In this document: one piece after another, positions 26,737 to 34,779 of the stretch
How positions within the stretch are numbered: the stretch's first letter is position 1
Layout: every line of letters begins with the position of its first letter
Origin: Thermodesulfobacteriota bacterium
GTDB lineage: Bacteria; Desulfobacterota; Desulfobulbia; Desulfobulbales; JBFMBH01
Direction: 5' to 3'
Length of the DNA stretch: 61,787 nucleotides
Assembly (NCBI GenBank): GCA_040755095.1
Contig: JBFMBH010000007.1
Coordinates: 1-61,787, forward strand
The notes under the pieces: model-generated
What the model saw: only the letters and a program-made list of their open reading frames with translations
Database searches by the model: none
Told to the model about the DNA's origin: nothing
Made by a program: the position numbers and the translations under genes

Positions 26737-28400
<1,664 letters not shown>

Positions 28401-28473
28401 GTGCTTTTCGTTGTCAACCATCTTCGGCCAGATAACCTCCCAACCCCACAGGCATTCCCGAGAAGGAACCAGC

Positions 28474-28914
28474 ATGGCTGTCCAGAGCAACGATCCCATC
28501 TACCCGATCAGCGTCGCCGCGAAACTCCTGGGCGTCCACCCCCGTACCATCCGCATCTACGAGGACGAAGGTCTGATCAAGCCGGCCCGCCTCGGCCAGA
28601 AGCGTTACTTCTCCAACGACGACGTGGAATGGATCCGGTGCATCCGTCATCTCATCCACGATCAGGGCATCAGCATCCCGGGCATCAAGAAGCTTCTGGA
28701 GCTGACCCCCTGCTGGGAGATCAAGGACTGCCCCACCGAGAAGCGCGAGAGCTGCTCCGCCTATGTGGACCGCTCCATCCCCTGCTGGCAACGGGCCTGC
28801 ACCGCCTGCCGCCGGGAGGCCAAGGCGTGCGAGCACTGCGAGATCTACCGCAAAGCGGCGCAGGAGACCCAGGGTGTCGCCGCCGCCCGCAAGGCCGTCG
28901 CCGCCCGGGCCTGA
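28474..28914 (+). CDS. MerR-family transcriptional regulator with Cys-rich C-terminal domain
   Basis: A 146-residue regulator. The N-terminal MerR winged helix (about residues 10-76) contains SVAAKLLGVHPRTIRIYEDEGLIKPAR with the wing KRYFSNDDVEWIR, similar to HspR/GlnR-type MerR proteins. The C-terminal portion carries eight cysteines (Cys80, 86, 94, 104, 109, 112, 119, 122), including CWEIKDC and CWQRACTAC, which could bind a metal or an iron-sulfur cluster. Effector-binding Cys-rich tails of this type suggest redox or metal sensing (inference). AGAAGGAACCAGC precedes the ATG at 28474. It is transcribed divergently from tgt and faces nosL. Confidence 0.85.
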   Translation: MAVQSNDPIYPISVAAKLLGVHPRTIRIYEDEGLIKPARLGQKRYFSNDDVEWIRCIRHLIHDQGISIPGIKKLLELTPCWEIKDCPTEKRESCSAYVDRSIPCWQRACTACRREAKACEHCEIYRKAAQETQGVAAARKAVAARA

Positions 28915-28980: not shown

Positions 28981-29463
28981 CTATTGCCCGGCCCGCAGGG
29001 ACTCCACCAGCTCCGGCGTGATCTCGGCAAAGCCCAGCACGCGCTTGCCCTTGTGATCGGCCCGGAAGCTCTCCGCCGCCGCCCGTGTCCCGAAGGGAAT
29101 GAGCTCGTGGCCCATGGGCCCCAGGGTGTCGCTGCCCAGCACATACCAGGCCAGGCGGCCGTCCACCCACGCCAGGGTGTAATAATCCTTGACCCAGATC
29201 TCCAGGGGCTGGCCGCCGGTCTTGTCGCCATACCGGCCAGGCTCCCCGAGATAGACGGCCATATCCTTCACCCCGTCAAAGTAGGCCACCGAGCCGTCCC
29301 TGTGGCGAACCTGGGCCTGCCAGACCGGATACTTGGCCACGAACATGCCGCAGACCGGACACCTGGCCCTTTCCGGCGCCAGGGCCGGCTCGGCGGCAGC
29401 CATGCCGATGGAGACAAGAGCCCCCAGAATCCCAAGGAAGATGCCATGCAGCCGCCGCACCAT
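28981..29463 (-). CDS. NosL-family copper lipoprotein-like protein
   Basis: A 160-residue secreted protein of the NosL family, periplasmic copper-binding proteins linked to nitrous oxide reductase assembly and found more widely. An N-terminal hydrophobic signal (LHGIFLGILGALVSIGMAAA) is followed by the copper-site motif RCPVCGMFVAKYP, then FDGVKDMAVYL and a C-terminal GHELIPF region. There is no lipobox Cys near the signal, unlike canonical NosL. Start ATG 29463 is favoured by AGGGGGG at 8 bases; ATG 29469 is an alternative. No nosZ lies nearby, so the client enzyme is unknown. Confidence 0.82.
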   Translation of the reverse strand: MVRRLHGIFLGILGALVSIGMAAAEPALAPERARCPVCGMFVAKYPVWQAQVRHRDGSVAYFDGVKDMAVYLGEPGRYGDKTGGQPLEIWVKDYYTLAWVDGRLAWYVLGSDTLGPMGHELIPFGTRAAAESFRADHKGKRVLGFAEITPELVESLRAGQ

Positions 29464-29702
29464 GTCCATTCCCCCCTCACGCGCGCGTGGTGATCCCCGA
29501 GGCCTGCCGGGTGCCGCCCATCCTAGCCCGGAGCCGCCGCTTGCGCAAGGCAGACGGGCCGCCCGCCTGCGCTTGCCATTTCGCCTTGCCTTGGGGTACG
29601 ATCCAATGATGAGTCAACAGGCTGAGGAATCTGCCGGGAAACCGCCTGGTTGTGGCCGGAAGGCCCGTCACGCCCCTTGCGCTCGATCTTGAGGAGGTGA
29701 TC

Positions 29703-30608
29703 ATGAGACAAGCCGCGGTGCTCCTGTCTGTCCTTGTCGCCGTCCTGCTGGCCGGGCCGGGGCGTCCGGCGCCGGCCATCGCCCAGGATGCCAGCCGGCC
29801 CTTGGTGATCGGGCTTCTGCCCGAGCTCAATGTCTTCGCGCAGATGGAGCGGTTCCGGCCCCTGGCTGCCTACCTGGGGCCACGCCTGGGCCGACCGGTG
29901 CAGCTCACCATGCTCAGCCGCTACGGCAACATCATTGACCGGCTCCGGGACGGGGAGGTGGACGGTGCCTTCCTGGGCTCCTTCACTGGCGCCCTGGCTA
30001 TTGCTCAGCTCCATGTGGAGCCCCTGGCCCGACCGGTGAATCTGGACGGCACCTCCACGTACACCGGTCTCCTCTTCGTTCGCCGGGCCAGCGGCATCCA
30101 TTCCATTGCCGACATGAAGGGCAAGAGCCTGGCCCTGGTGGAGCGGGCCACCACGGCCGGCTATGTCTTCCCGCTGGCCTTCGTGCGCTCCCAGGGCATC
30201 CCCAGCCTGGAGGATCACTTCCGGGAAATCTTCTTTGCCGGCAGCCATGACGCGGCCATCCAGGCGGTCCTGGACGGCCGGGCCGACGTGGGGGCCGCCA
30301 AGAATACCATCTTCCAGCGCCTGCGGCTCGCCGCTCCAGCCCTGGACGAGCGGCTGACCGTCCTGGCCGAATCGGCACCCGTGCCCTCCAACGGCCTGTG
30401 CGTCAAGCCCGAGGTGCCCGCTGCCGACAAGAGCCGTCTGAAGTCCCTGCTCCTGGGCCTGGACATGGATCCGGACGGCCGCGAGACGCTGGCGGCTCTG
30501 GGAGCGCTGCGCTTCCTGGCCACCAGCGCCGACGACTACCAGCCGGTGCGCCAGCTGACCCATGAGGCTGGCCTCCGGCTTGCGGACTACCAGTACCACA
30601 ACGAATGA
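29703..30608 (+). CDS. PhnD-like periplasmic substrate-binding protein (signalling operon)
   Basis: A 301-residue periplasmic binding protein of the phosphate/phosphite/phosphonate (PhnD-like) class. A signal peptide (MRQAAVLLSVLVAVLLAGP) ends around residue 28. The fold signatures RPLVIGLLPELNVFAQMERFRPLAAYL and GEVDGAFLGSFTG are present, with SIADMKGKSLALVERATTAGYVFP in the hinge region. GAGGAGGTGATC directly precedes the ATG. Its stop overlaps the start of the histidine kinase gene (ATGA), and no permease or ATPase gene follows. It is therefore more likely a ligand sensor for the kinase than a transporter component. Confidence 0.88.
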   Translation: MRQAAVLLSVLVAVLLAGPGRPAPAIAQDASRPLVIGLLPELNVFAQMERFRPLAAYLGPRLGRPVQLTMLSRYGNIIDRLRDGEVDGAFLGSFTGALAIAQLHVEPLARPVNLDGTSTYTGLLFVRRASGIHSIADMKGKSLALVERATTAGYVFPLAFVRSQGIPSLEDHFREIFFAGSHDAAIQAVLDGRADVGAAKNTIFQRLRLAAPALDERLTVLAESAPVPSNGLCVKPEVPAADKSRLKSLLLGLDMDPDGRETLAALGALRFLATSADDYQPVRQLTHEAGLRLADYQYHNE

Positions 30609-33034
30609 TCCGCATCATTGTCGGCTCCTTTGCCGTCATCTTCGCCCTCTTCCTGGGCGGCTCCGGGCTCATGCTCCGGCAGCTGGCGGACTCCACCGAC
30701 CGACTACGCACCCTGATCGTGCTGCACGAGATCGAGGATCTGCGCCAGGACCTGGCCGAGCACGTCCAGAATATCCGCTACGTCATCCGTTCCACCCCGG
30801 CTGAATTCACCACCCACCTGGACAGCGTCATCGACAGCGTCCGGGGCATGAGCCAGGCCATGGCCCACTGCCACGACTGCCATCATGGGGCCAGTGTCCA
30901 GGAGGAGCTCGATTATACGAGCCAGCTGGTGGCGGATCTGCAGGAGCGCCTGTCCTTTCTCATCACCTCCCTGGGAGAGGGCCCCTGGCGCCAGGAAAAC
31001 GCCGGCCGCGTCGAGGCGGTCGGCGAGGTGATCCTGACCATGGTTCAGGCCATGGCCCGGCGGGCGGCGGTCACCATCCAACTCCGCACCCAGGCGGTGA
31101 CCGCCACGGTGGAGCGATCCGAGGAGCTTCTGGCCCTCACCCTGGTCGCCACCCTGCTCACCGCCCTGCTCGTGGCCCGCCATCTGACTGTCCAGGTCAC
31201 GCGGCCCTTGGCTTCCCTGGTGGCCGCCACCCGCCAGCTGACCAGTGGTGCGACCGGCACCCAGGCGCCGCTGCAAGGTCCCGGCGAGATCCAAGAGCTC
31301 ATCGGCAGCTTCAACACCATGAGCACCGCCCTGGCGAACAAGGAGATCCTGCTGGCTGAAACCATCGACCGCCTGGAGCGCCTGAGCACCCTGACTCTGC
31401 CGTTGCACACCTCGCGCCAGAGCGCCAGCCCGGATAGCGACTCCCTCCTGGCCCAAGTGGAGACCAGCCTTCTGAGCCTCATGGACTGCGAGGTAGCCGG
31501 CACCCTGCTGCCAGCCGGCGACCAGGGCTTTCGTTTGCACCTGGTGGCTGGGCCGGAAAGCGAATTCGGCCCCCTCACCCTCCTGGTGGACCGGTCCACC
31601 GTGGTGGCGGCCCGGCAATCCTCCTCCGACGCCGACCCCGCCTGGCCGTTCGGCCAGCTGCCCCGGGGGCTCGCGCCCCGTCACCTCCTGGTGGCCTGGC
31701 TGCCAGACAAGGACCAGGAGCCGTCAGGAGCGCTGGTGGCGATCAACCGCCGCCAGGGCGCGCCAAGAAGCCAAGACAGGACCATCCTCACCCTGTTGGC
31801 CAGCCATCTGGGCATCGCTCTGGACAACGAGCGGCTGTATGCGGATCTGGAGCACGGCCTGCTTGAGCTGCGGCAGACCCAGCGCCAGCTGGTGGATGCC
31901 GAGAAGCTCACCGCCCTGGGGACCCTTGCCGGGGGTATCGCCCACGACTTCAACAACATCCTGTGCGGCATCCTGGGCCATATCGCCCTGTTGAAAAGGA
32001 GCCGGCCCGCGGGGGACCCGGTCACCCCCGTCCTGGACATCATCGAGCAGGCCGGCTTGCGGGCCGCCGGTCTGACCAGGCAGCTCCTGGCCTTCGCTCG
32101 CCGCGGCACGGCCAGAACAGAGCCCGTGGATCTGAACCGCTCCGTCGCCAGCGTCGTGGCGATCGTCCGCAACACCATCCCCAAGACCATCACCATCCGC
32201 AGCGAGCTGGCGGCCGATCTGCCGCTCCTGGCGGGGGATGCCAGTCAGCTGGAGCAGGTGATCATGAACCTGTGCGTCAACGCCCGGGATGCCATGCCGC
32301 AAGGCGGCGAGATCCTGATCGCCACCACGGCCATGGAGGTGGACGAGGCCTTCAGCCGGCTGTTCGCCGGCGCCCAGCCCGGCCCCCACGTGCGCCTTCT
32401 GGTCAGCGATACCGGCGTCGGCATTCAGCGGGAGATCATGTCCCGCATCTTCGAGCCGTTCTTCACCACCAAGGAGGTGGGCAAGGGCACCGGCCTCGGC
32501 CTGTCCACCGTGTACGGCATCGTCCGTGGCCACAACGGGTTCTGCCACGTGGACAGCCAGCCGGGGCACGGCACCCGGTTCAGCGTCTTCCTGCCAACCC
32601 AGGCGGCGGCCAAGGCGGTTCCCGCCGAGCCCGCCAGGCCCGAGGGCGCGGCGACTGCACCCAGCCCCTGCCGGGGCCGGATCCTGGTGGTGGACGACGA
32701 GGAGCCGGTGGCCGGCATGCTGGCGGAGTACCTGGGCTCCCTGGGCTGTACCGTCAGCGTGGCCACCAACGGCCAGCACGGGGTCGAGCTGGTGGCCCAG
32801 GCCGAAGTCCCCTTCGACCTGGTGATCCTGGACGTCAATATGCCGGTCATGGACGGCCGGGAGGCATTCCAGCGCATACGCTCCCTGCGCCCGGCGCTCA
32901 AGGTTCTTGTCTCGTCCGGCTATCCTGAGGATGGCGTCGTCCAGGACATCCTGCGCCAAGGCGCCGACGCCTTCCTCCAGAAGCCCTATTCCCTTGATGC
33001 GGTGACTGTCAAGCTCCGGCAGCTTCTGCCCTGA
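30605..33034 (+). CDS. Hybrid histidine kinase with periplasmic CxxCH haem motif
   Basis: Membrane-bound hybrid sensor kinase, 809 residues. Membrane helix 1 is about residues 5-25 and helix 2 about 175-195. Between them lies a helical periplasmic domain containing CHDCH (Cys89, Cys92, His93), a covalent c-type haem attachment motif. HAMP is about 196-250 and a GAF-like region about 280-410. The HisKA phospho-accepting His447 lies in AGGIAHDFNN. HATPase boxes are NLCVNARDAM (N), DTGVGI (G1) and GTGLGLSTVYG (G2). A C-terminal receiver (692-809) has the phospho-Asp at about 743 in LDVNMP. It overlaps the upstream PhnD-like gene (ATGA) and is followed by two receiver genes. Likely input: redox state through haem, and a ligand through the PhnD-like protein (inference). 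Confidence 0.92.
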   Translation: MIRIIVGSFAVIFALFLGGSGLMLRQLADSTDRLRTLIVLHEIEDLRQDLAEHVQNIRYVIRSTPAEFTTHLDSVIDSVRGMSQAMAHCHDCHHGASVQEELDYTSQLVADLQERLSFLITSLGEGPWRQENAGRVEAVGEVILTMVQAMARRAAVTIQLRTQAVTATVERSEELLALTLVATLLTALLVARHLTVQVTRPLASLVAATRQLTSGATGTQAPLQGPGEIQELIGSFNTMSTALANKEILLAETIDRLERLSTLTLPLHTSRQSASPDSDSLLAQVETSLLSLMDCEVAGTLLPAGDQGFRLHLVAGPESEFGPLTLLVDRSTVVAARQSSSDADPAWPFGQLPRGLAPRHLLVAWLPDKDQEPSGALVAINRRQGAPRSQDRTILTLLASHLGIALDNERLYADLEHGLLELRQTQRQLVDAEKLTALGTLAGGIAHDFNNILCGILGHIALLKRSRPAGDPVTPVLDIIEQAGLRAAGLTRQLLAFARRGTARTEPVDLNRSVASVVAIVRNTIPKTITIRSELAADLPLLAGDASQLEQVIMNLCVNARDAMPQGGEILIATTAMEVDEAFSRLFAGAQPGPHVRLLVSDTGVGIQREIMSRIFEPFFTTKEVGKGTGLGLSTVYGIVRGHNGFCHVDSQPGHGTRFSVFLPTQAAAKAVPAEPARPEGAATAPSPCRGRILVVDDEEPVAGMLAEYLGSLGCTVSVATNGQHGVELVAQAEVPFDLVILDVNMPVMDGREAFQRIRSLRPALKVLVSSGYPEDGVVQDILRQGADAFLQKPYSLDAVTVKLRQLLP

Positions 33035-33044
33035 GGTCGGAATC

Positions 33045-34391
33045 ATGAGCCGCTATCCCGTACTCCTGGTGGAGGACAGCCGCTCCCTGGCCCTGTTCGT
33101 ACGCCGCAAGCTGGAGGCGGCGCTGCCCGTGGTGGTCACCTGGGCCCAGGACTACCGGGAGGCGGTGGCGCACCTGGCCAGCGGCCGCGACTTCACCTTG
33201 GGCATCCTCGATCTCACCTTGCCGGATGCCCCGCAAGGCCAGATTGTCGACCTGGCCGCGACCCGGGGCCTGCCGGCTATCGTTTTCGCCGGTCAGTTCG
33301 ACGAGCGCCTCCGGGAGGAGCTGTGGGCCAAACGGGTGGTGGACTATGTGCTCAAAGAGTCCCCCGAGACCATTGACCTTCTGGTCGGCCTGGTACGGCG
33401 CCTCTTGCGCAACCGCGAGATCAAGGTGCTGGTGGTGGACGACTCCCGGGGAGCCCGCCAGGAGCTGCAGGAGCTGCTGGCGATCCACGGGTACCAGGTC
33501 TTCACCGCCAGCTCCGGCCAGGAGGCCCTGGCAGTCGCTGCCCAGGAGCCCGATCTGCGGCTGGTCCTGGCCGACTACGCCATGCCGGAGCCCAACGGCG
33601 TCGAGCTGACCCGGCGGTTGCGCGCCCGCTATTCCAAGGACCAACTGGCCATCATCGGTCTGTCCGCCCGGGCGGATCGGCATCTGTCGGCCATGTTCCT
33701 CAAGAACGGCGCCAATGATTTCGTGCACAAGCCATTCCTGGCCGAGGAGCTGTACTGCCGGGTGAGCCAGAACATCGAGCTCATCGAGCACATCGCGGCC
33801 ATCCAGGAGAGCTCCAACCGGGACTTCTTGACCGGCCTTTACAACCGGCGCTACCTGTTCGAGCTGGGCGAGAACCTGTTAGCCTCCGCCTTGCGGGGCC
33901 ACATCACCCTCACGGTGGCCATGCTGGATATCGATTTCTTCAAGAGGATCAATGACACCCACGGCCACGACGTCGGGGACATGGTCCTCAAGCACCTGGC
34001 CGGGATTCTGGCCAAGCGCTTCCGGGCCACCGACGTCGTCAGCCGTTATGGCGGGGAGGAGTTCTGCCTCCTGGCCGTCAACATGGACCGGGCCGCGGTA
34101 CCGCGGGTGTTTGCGGAGGTTCGAGACCGGATCGCCGCGTCCACCCTGGAGGCAGGAGGCCGGACGGTCAAGGTCACGGTGAGCATCGGGGTGAGCACCG
34201 TCATCGGCAGCTCCCTGGAAGAGATGATTCGGCAGGCGGATGCCATGCTCTACGCCGCCAAGGCCGCCGGCCGGGATCGGGTGGTGGTGGATGAGCCGGA
34301 GCCCGCCGACCTTGGCGGGCCCGAAGCAACAACCAGCGACAGGCTAATGAGGAGGGAGGAGGCCCATGGCCAAAATTCTCGTGGTGGATGA
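33045..34391 (+). CDS. Response regulator with two receivers and a GGDEF diguanylate cyclase domain
   Basis: PleD-like regulator of 448 residues. Receiver 1 has its phospho-Asp at Asp56 (GILDLTLPD) and receiver 2 (about 125-245) at Asp177 (VLADYAMPE). The C-terminal GGDEF domain (about 258-415) begins DFLTGLYNRRYLF and has the intact catalytic loop GGEEF (336-340). An RxxD inhibitory site, RATD, sits at 327-330, so it should make cyclic di-GMP and be product-inhibited. It lies 10 bases after the kinase gene and overlaps the next receiver gene by 26 bases. It is the probable output of the upstream kinase. Confidence 0.93.
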   Translation: MSRYPVLLVEDSRSLALFVRRKLEAALPVVVTWAQDYREAVAHLASGRDFTLGILDLTLPDAPQGQIVDLAATRGLPAIVFAGQFDERLREELWAKRVVDYVLKESPETIDLLVGLVRRLLRNREIKVLVVDDSRGARQELQELLAIHGYQVFTASSGQEALAVAAQEPDLRLVLADYAMPEPNGVELTRRLRARYSKDQLAIIGLSARADRHLSAMFLKNGANDFVHKPFLAEELYCRVSQNIELIEHIAAIQESSNRDFLTGLYNRRYLFELGENLLASALRGHITLTVAMLDIDFFKRINDTHGHDVGDMVLKHLAGILAKRFRATDVVSRYGGEEFCLLAVNMDRAAVPRVFAEVRDRIAASTLEAGGRTVKVTVSIGVSTVIGSSLEEMIRQADAMLYAAKAAGRDRVVVDEPEPADLGGPEATTSDRLMRREEAHGQNSRGG

Positions 34392-34779
34392 TGAGCCGTC
34401 GATCCGGGACCTGCTGCAGCGCCTCCTGGCAGACGCCGGTCATGCAGTCAGGACCGCAGCCGACGGCGAGGAGGCGTTGACCTTCTTCCAGCAGGAGCCG
34501 GCGGATCTGGTCATCGTCGACCTGATTATGCCCCGCAAGGATGGCCTCAACACCATCGTCGACATCCTGGAGGCGTCGCCCAACACCGGGGTGATCGCCA
34601 TCTCCGGGGGCGGCCAGGCTATCGGCGCCGGCCGCTACCTGCGCCTGGCCCAGGAGCTGGGGGCCGTGCATGTGCTCTCGAAGCCCCTGGACATGCTGGA
34701 GCTGTTCGGGGCCATCGATGCCACCCTGGCCCGGCGGTCATCGGGGAAAGGCCTCGGGGATCCCGGCGTCCACGGGTAG
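34366..34779 (+). CDS. Single-domain response regulator
   Basis: A 137-residue CheY-like receiver. ILVVDDEPSIRDLLQRLL carries the acidic pair, the phospho-Asp lies in VIVDLIMPRKDG, and the conserved Lys is in HVLSKPLDM. It overlaps the end of the diguanylate cyclase gene by 26 bases, and AGGAGGGAGGAGG lies just upstream of its start, inside that gene. Its last 14 codons overlap the end of the convergent aldolase/dehydrogenase gene by 42 bases. No output domain is present, so it acts by interaction or in a phosphorelay with the hybrid kinase. Confidence 0.9.
   Translation: MAKILVVDDEPSIRDLLQRLLADAGHAVRTAADGEEALTFFQQEPADLVIVDLIMPRKDGLNTIVDILEASPNTGVIAISGGGQAIGAGRYLRLAQELGAVHVLSKPLDMLELFGAIDATLARRSSGKGLGDPGVHG

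Follow-up and report, generated by a model that had tools for sequence, protein, structure and literature searches.

A PhnD-like binding protein and a putative haem-c sensor kinase encoded with a diguanylate cyclase in a bacterium of the Desulfobulbales

We analyzed a stretch of 61,787 nucleotides (the window) from a sediment-type Thermodesulfobacteriota bacterium of the order Desulfobulbales (assembly GCA_040755095.1, contig JBFMBH010000007.1), in which four consecutive genes on the + strand (positions 29703-34779) encode a PhnD-like periplasmic binding protein, a hybrid histidine kinase bearing a CHDCH motif in the periplasm, a PleD-type diguanylate cyclase and a lone receiver protein. Comparison with related loci suggests, with a probability that we put at roughly 60%, that these genes specify a binding-protein-dependent receptor that carries covalent haem and signals to cyclic di-GMP. 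The parts (binding-protein receptors and haem-c sensors) are known and the combination is new, and the system is probably an undescribed variant of the binding-protein-dependent receptor in which an oxyanion-type ligand is combined with a haem signal.

In the mechanism that we propose, the PhnD-like protein would be exported, bind a small oxyanion-type ligand and dock on the four-helix bundle that the kinase has in the periplasm. This bundle would hold a c-type haem at CHDCH, where helix 2 turns into helix 3. The activity of the kinase would depend both on ligand occupancy and on the haem, through its redox state or a bound gas, the signal would cross the membrane and reach the kinase core via HAMP, and phosphate would pass to the neighboring cyclase and lone receiver, altering cyclic di-GMP. 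The points that we infer from the comparisons below are haem attachment, docking, the class of ligand, what the haem does and the path of the phosphate; as the role of the haem, binding of nitric oxide (NO) or carbon monoxide (CO) is as open as redox sensing.

Pairing of the binding protein with the haem-c sensor

The order-level comparison covered the window's own genome and 37 more from its order, 38 in all, with no other genome of its family among the relatives searched. A tblastn search of the relatives' genome contigs with the kinase sensor alone gave no match, and related loci were gathered with an alignment of PhnD. Twenty-eight homologues stand out in the 38 genomes (163-645 bits), all of which directly precede a kinase or, in two cases, a GGDEF-EAL receptor. 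A wider set of 80 loci was drawn from Desulfobulbaceae, Geobacteraceae and Desulfuromonadales, Nitrospirota, Acidobacteriota and one Myxococcales record. Together with the loci of the order it yields 81 non-redundant pairs of PhnD and haem sensor, which belong to Desulfobacterota, Nitrospirota, Acidobacteriota and Myxococcota. Where PhnD comes first the two genes are close, with a median gap of 12.5 bases and at most 50 bases in 57 of 72 pairs.

Further support for the pairing is provided by co-occurrence. Among 395 genomes of the phylum, PhnD (counted at E below 1e-80) is found in 27 and the full-length sensor in 29, and 25 genomes have both, compared with about two expected by chance (Fisher p 3e-33). 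Judged from gene content, the pairing of PhnD with the haem-c sensor is real, widespread and far beyond chance. Fourteen PhnDs have no adjacent sensor, and a full-length sensor is encoded in all of the 12 Nitrospirota genomes searched for one, 11 of which had been picked for such a PhnD. Several of the 14 orphan PhnDs, in Nitrospirota (loci L078, L081, L082, L099 and L105), adjoin a small gene that reads as CutA-like, their sensors being encoded elsewhere in the genome.

No transporter gene adjoins the four-gene set. A preliminary description of this DNA had claimed that the binding protein lacks transporter partners, and the test of this claim was fixed beforehand. Consistent with the claim, a search of the 38 genomes found no PhnE near any of the 28 close PhnD homologues, the window's included, while seven remote PhnDs (34-75 bits) in the same genomes lie within 1.5 kb of one. 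The search ruled out a transporter remnant. It also ruled out, together with failure of the equivalog model TIGR03431 (164 bits versus a cut-off of 261), a PhnD equivalog serving as phosphonate transporter subunit. With a kinase gene as neighbor and no transporter gene, the binding protein has the genomic arrangement of binding-protein-dependent sensor kinases of the AioXS, ArrXS and TorTS type.

The haem-c motif and the anion pocket

The kinase (809 residues; 30605-33034) consists of a transmembrane helix, the periplasmic sensor, a second transmembrane helix, HAMP (PF00672; 31193-31333), a HisKA and HATPase_c core (31916-32602) and a C-terminal receiver (REC; PF00072; 32681-33010). The H, N, G1 and G2 boxes are present, so that with both core domains it qualifies as a HisKA-type histidine kinase, and its REC (LDVNMP/VSSG/QKP) keeps the key aspartate and lysine. 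No Pfam family covers the sensor domain (residues about 25-172; 30677-31120), which is predicted to be a four-helix bundle (predicted local distance difference test score, pLDDT, 88) with CHDCH (30869-30883) in the turn between helices 2 and 3. The motif occupies residues 89-93 between two predicted transmembrane helices, in agreement with the hybrid kinase with periplasmic CHDCH of the preliminary description. With the adjacent His94, the putative haem-c attachment motif (C89, C92, H93) extends over 30869-30886.

Conservation of CxxCH among orthologous kinases had also been named in advance as a test, and the motif withstood it: all 80 sensors align at C, C and H, and 79 at His94, and C89, C92, H93 and H94 are invariant in the 21 order-level sensors. 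One homologue (L128:9875-12193) has CX3CH (CANACH) at the aligned position, the only such case among the 80. His41 on helix 1 (30725-30727), a candidate second haem ligand, is kept in 65 of the 80 and, as judged from helix lengths in the model, should lie at about the same height in the bundle as CHDCH. A sister clade of six kinases lacks the haem motif; these are paired with more remote PhnDs, which a fully supported branch separates from the rest, and most of the sequences shown have Asp at the His41 position. A paralogous PhnD-kinase pair in the window's own genome (L025; G000:C60), with a sensor that has no haem motif, is a member of this clade. The host genome encodes three cytochrome c assembly proteins and one full-length haem sensor, that of the window. 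We infer that the sensor very probably carries covalently bound haem.

We considered membership of the haem-Cache family (sCache_heme, PF11845), with which the CXXCH motif agrees, and rejected it given the all-helical prediction and the lack of a PF11845 match for the window kinase; this family is also absent from the 25 commonest families for 21 sensors. If the model is right, the haem-c helical bundle may represent a second fold for covalent haem-c sensing beside haem-Cache (PMC12889525).

The PhnD-like protein (301 residues; 29703-30608) has a Sec-type signal peptide (residues 1-28) without a lipobox. It matches PF12974 (Phosphonate-bd) at E 8e-61, with 206 bits against a gathering score of 27, and passes TIGR01098. 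Its AlphaFold2 model (pLDDT 93) has ArrX as the best match in the PDB (TM 0.92), followed by PtxB and AioX, and PhnD is also matched. One study gives Tyr88, Tyr131, Ser161 and His192 (AioX numbering) as anion-pocket residues of AioX and PhnD (PMC5908839). Their counterparts in the window protein, Tyr74, Tyr120, Thr150 and His182, are all well conserved in the family alignment, while AioX Cys106 corresponds to Gly92, and mostly to Gly in the family, by a position mapping read from the alignments. Since the anion-pocket residues are kept and Cys106 is replaced, an oxyanion-type ligand is likely and arsenite unlikely. The lack of this cysteine of the arsenic-oxyanion pocket also ruled out membership of the AioX/ArxX/ArrX subfamily. 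PhnD matches within open frames of about 790 residues (G428:C90, G427:C10 and G431:C149) at first suggested fusions; the G428 gene, read from its own start, is an ordinary PhnD of 301 residues.

Several known systems share part of this design. AioX-AioS-AioR and ArrX-ArrS also use a PF12974 binding protein of the PhnD fold for sensing and not transport, encoded beside a membrane kinase, and ArrX is the solved sensing protein structurally closest to the PhnD model of the window. However, their outputs are transcriptional regulators, AioX has Cys106 in place of Gly92, and haem c is not mentioned for AioX or ArrX in the available part of the source (PMC5908839). TtrS and ThsS demonstrate that PhnD-like sensors of kinases can read the sulfur oxyanions tetrathionate and thiosulfate, although there the PhnD-like domain is fused into the kinase rather than being a separate protein, and the part of the report available does not mention a haem-c domain (PMC5408782). 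A periplasmic haem-c motif is found in sCache_heme (DUF3365/Tll0287) sensors and in GSU0582 and GSU0935, with kinase, chemotaxis or GGDEF/EAL outputs, and is common in the same phyla (PMC12889525, PMC8396549); sCache_heme has a Cache fold instead of a helical bundle, and no binding-protein partner has been described for it. Two-component proteins of G. sulfurreducens with haem-c motifs include GSU2314 and GSU2816 (PMC8396549). Our literature search, in which subscription journals were scarcely represented, found no description of a binding-protein receptor combined with a haem-c sensor, nor of a helical-bundle haem-c sensor. TorT-TorS and XylFII-LytS resemble the window system in having a separate binding protein and a kinase with a periplasmic helical-bundle sensor, a similarity of fold that is weak evidence of kinship. 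To our knowledge, their binding proteins are of other types and there is no covalent haem. In NspS-MbaA a separate binding protein controls a membrane GGDEF-EAL receptor for cyclic di-GMP; the ligand is a polyamine and haem c is not known there.

Cyclic di-GMP output and alternative explanations

The cyclase (448 residues; 33045-34391) has the order REC-REC-GGDEF and reads RATD-VVSRY-GGEEF, so that the RxxD inhibitory site (I-site) and the active site (GG(D/E)EF) are intact, as in PleD-type cyclases; it resembles PleD and CbrR. Key residues are kept in its second REC and in the lone receiver (137 residues; 34366-34779), in which Pfam finds one REC with the phosphoacceptor and switch residues intact. 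Both proteins match the preliminary description, which had a double-receiver GGDEF protein with intact catalytic and inhibitory sites and a lone receiver. The link to cyclic di-GMP is supported independently, as 35 of the 81 pairs have this sensor fused to GGDEF or GGDEF-EAL, with an HD-type domain in another. Kinases are the output of 39 pairs, and in the remaining 7 it is cut off or of another kind. The tree of the binding proteins shows at least four switches of partner output between kinase and GGDEF, indicating that PhnD and the haem sensor form an interchangeable front end. A logic like that proposed for the window is seen in a run of genes of an Acidobacteriota genome (L140:448-7237), which encodes a haem-sensor hybrid kinase, a PhnD, a haem-sensor HD-domain protein and then a GGDEF protein that has CXXCH twice. 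On these comparative grounds a cyclic di-GMP output is strongly supported for the sensor family and likely for the window system, and direct phosphotransfer from kinase to cyclase is plausible.

Docking of the PhnD-like protein on the sensor is predicted, and the support for it, similarity of the modeled fold to docked sensors, is suggestive. Foldseek ranked NarQ first for the sensor model, and with VIA-align the best match was the LytS sensor in the XylFII complex (Z 16.1, root-mean-square deviation 1.8 over 118), with TorS-TorT at Z 13.3. A search of PDB sequences with the sensor alignment gave essentially only matches to the transmembrane/HAMP region. Several observations weigh against the proposed receptor. 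Four-helix bundles match many unrelated structures, and a Z near 14 is weak, so that the fold scores are merely suggestive. The correlation between the partners' distance matrices (r 0.47, versus at most 0.25 in 2000 permutations), which favors the receptor, reflects in part common descent. Some genomes have sensors without an adjacent PhnD, and docking need therefore not be one-to-one. The complete four-gene set was seen only in the window, the cyclase and lone receiver not being beside the pair in the relatives sampled. Finally, no histidine phosphotransfer protein (Hpt) is encoded in the operon, compared with 20 matches elsewhere in the host genome, and the kinase is a hybrid, so the phosphate may go elsewhere. 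The interpretation in the preliminary description is partly supported: what it presented as a complete pathway to cyclic di-GMP agrees with the fusions of the sensor to GGDEF domains, but with no Hpt in the operon the word complete is not supported.

The last two points bear on an explanation in which two separate pathways are encoded, the PhnD-kinase pair acting through a distant Hpt and regulator on transcription or another target, and the cyclase and lone receiver answering to other kinases. We consider this unlikely. It fits a hybrid kinase in an operon without Hpt, and it fits the REC-REC-GGDEF homologues of relatives (41-56% identity), which lie in other contexts, away from PhnD pairs and in two cases beside CheA/MCP-like genes. 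Relatives employ sigma-54 regulators or receivers instead. However, the 10-base gap before the cyclase gene and its 26-base overlap with the next indicate co-transcription, and many lineages carry fusions of this sensor to GGDEF-EAL. The positions of the cyclase homologues do not support the four-gene set as a conserved unit, for which the preliminary description had proposed a synteny check. The best reading of the set is therefore that a conserved sensor has been joined locally by a common output protein.

A second explanation, which we also think improbable, is a haem gas sensor in which a five-coordinate or weakly ligated haem binds NO or CO and the PhnD-like protein merely modulates or stabilizes the sensor. 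Domains of the sCache_heme type fused to signaling modules act as NO sensors (PMC12889525), and a fixed second ligand is uncertain because His41 is not universal among the sensors; yet the predicted fold differs from Cache, and the strong conservation of the anion-pocket residues argues for ligand sensing by the binding protein. The haem could instead be structural, with the loaded binding protein switching the kinase in an anion sensor of the AioX/ArrX kind. ArrX is the nearest structure to the PhnD model, both AioX and ArrX act together with an adjacent kinase (PMC5908839), and the sister clade retains a PhnD-kinase pair without the motif. Nevertheless, presence of the motif in every one of the 80 sensors, across at least four phyla and all outputs, is more than a structural role needs, and we regard this explanation as decidedly improbable. 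A metal site or a redox-active disulfide at CHDCH, in place of haem c, is very unlikely: the motif alone cannot discriminate and the adjacent His94 is near-invariant too, but the spacing is canonical for haem c, the location is periplasmic, the genome has cytochrome c assembly genes and the CX3CH homologue preserves the order C, C, H.

Respiratory context and gene layout

Returning to the covalent-haem receptor, its neighbors in relatives hint that its physiology centers on respiratory electron acceptors. As a raw count, 15 of 82 sensor loci have multihaem cytochrome genes no more than a few genes away. In one relative from the Desulfobulbales (L021:8429-13368) the pair is preceded by genes for a multihaem MtrC-like cytochrome and an MtrB/PioB-like porin, both recognized by Pfam. 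At a second locus, L018, gene sizes and CXXCH counts point to the same arrangement, and a weak MtrB-like match occurs in L036. It is possible that the PhnD/haem-sensor kinase of L021 and L018 regulates an extracellular electron conduit. In relatives among sulfate reducers, Geobacter and Nitrospirota, biofilms and extracellular electron transfer are already linked to cyclic di-GMP. If the proposed receptor is real, it would provide a defined route from respiratory electron acceptors, as anion and as periplasmic redox or gas state, to cyclic di-GMP. The idea is testable because at least one relative from this order has the pair in an operon with an MtrB-like porin and a multihaem cytochrome. As a broader proposal, to which we give somewhat less than even odds, there may be a class of dual-input receptors in at least four phyla of anaerobic or subsurface bacteria. 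Here a haem-c four-helix sensor would read the periplasmic electron or gas state together with an oxyanion presented by PhnD, and kinase, GGDEF-EAL and HD outputs would mainly tune cyclic di-GMP to the electron acceptor.

At three kinase-type loci a second binding protein (PF04392) is encoded just upstream of PhnD (L018:8578-9516, L029:1736-2674 and L036:8374-9348), which possibly means two ligands per receptor. Genes of similar size stand at this position in L021, L034 and L035, that of L021 being likened by size and place.

The packing of the four window genes is operon-like. All are open reading frames at the positions given by the preliminary description, which had them overlapping or nearly so; its phrase "fused in operon" is right in that the genes are adjacent or overlapping, and wrong in that they are not fused. 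The PhnD-like and kinase genes share a 4-base ATGA overlap, 10 bases separate the kinase and cyclase genes, and the cyclase and lone receiver genes overlap by 26 bases. The ribosome-binding sites ahead of the first and last genes (PhnD-like protein and lone receiver) are strong. A scan for promoters and terminators gave a single weak promoter-like match upstream of the set and nothing decisive. Downstream lies an aldolase/dehydrogenase fusion gene convergent to the set. Upstream, a NosL-like gene (28981-29469) is divergent from the operon, 233 bases from the PhnD start, and just upstream of this region is a gene for a MerR/HspR-like regulator (28384-28914) with an unusual cysteine-rich C-terminal tail (CWEIKDC...CxAC...CEHC).

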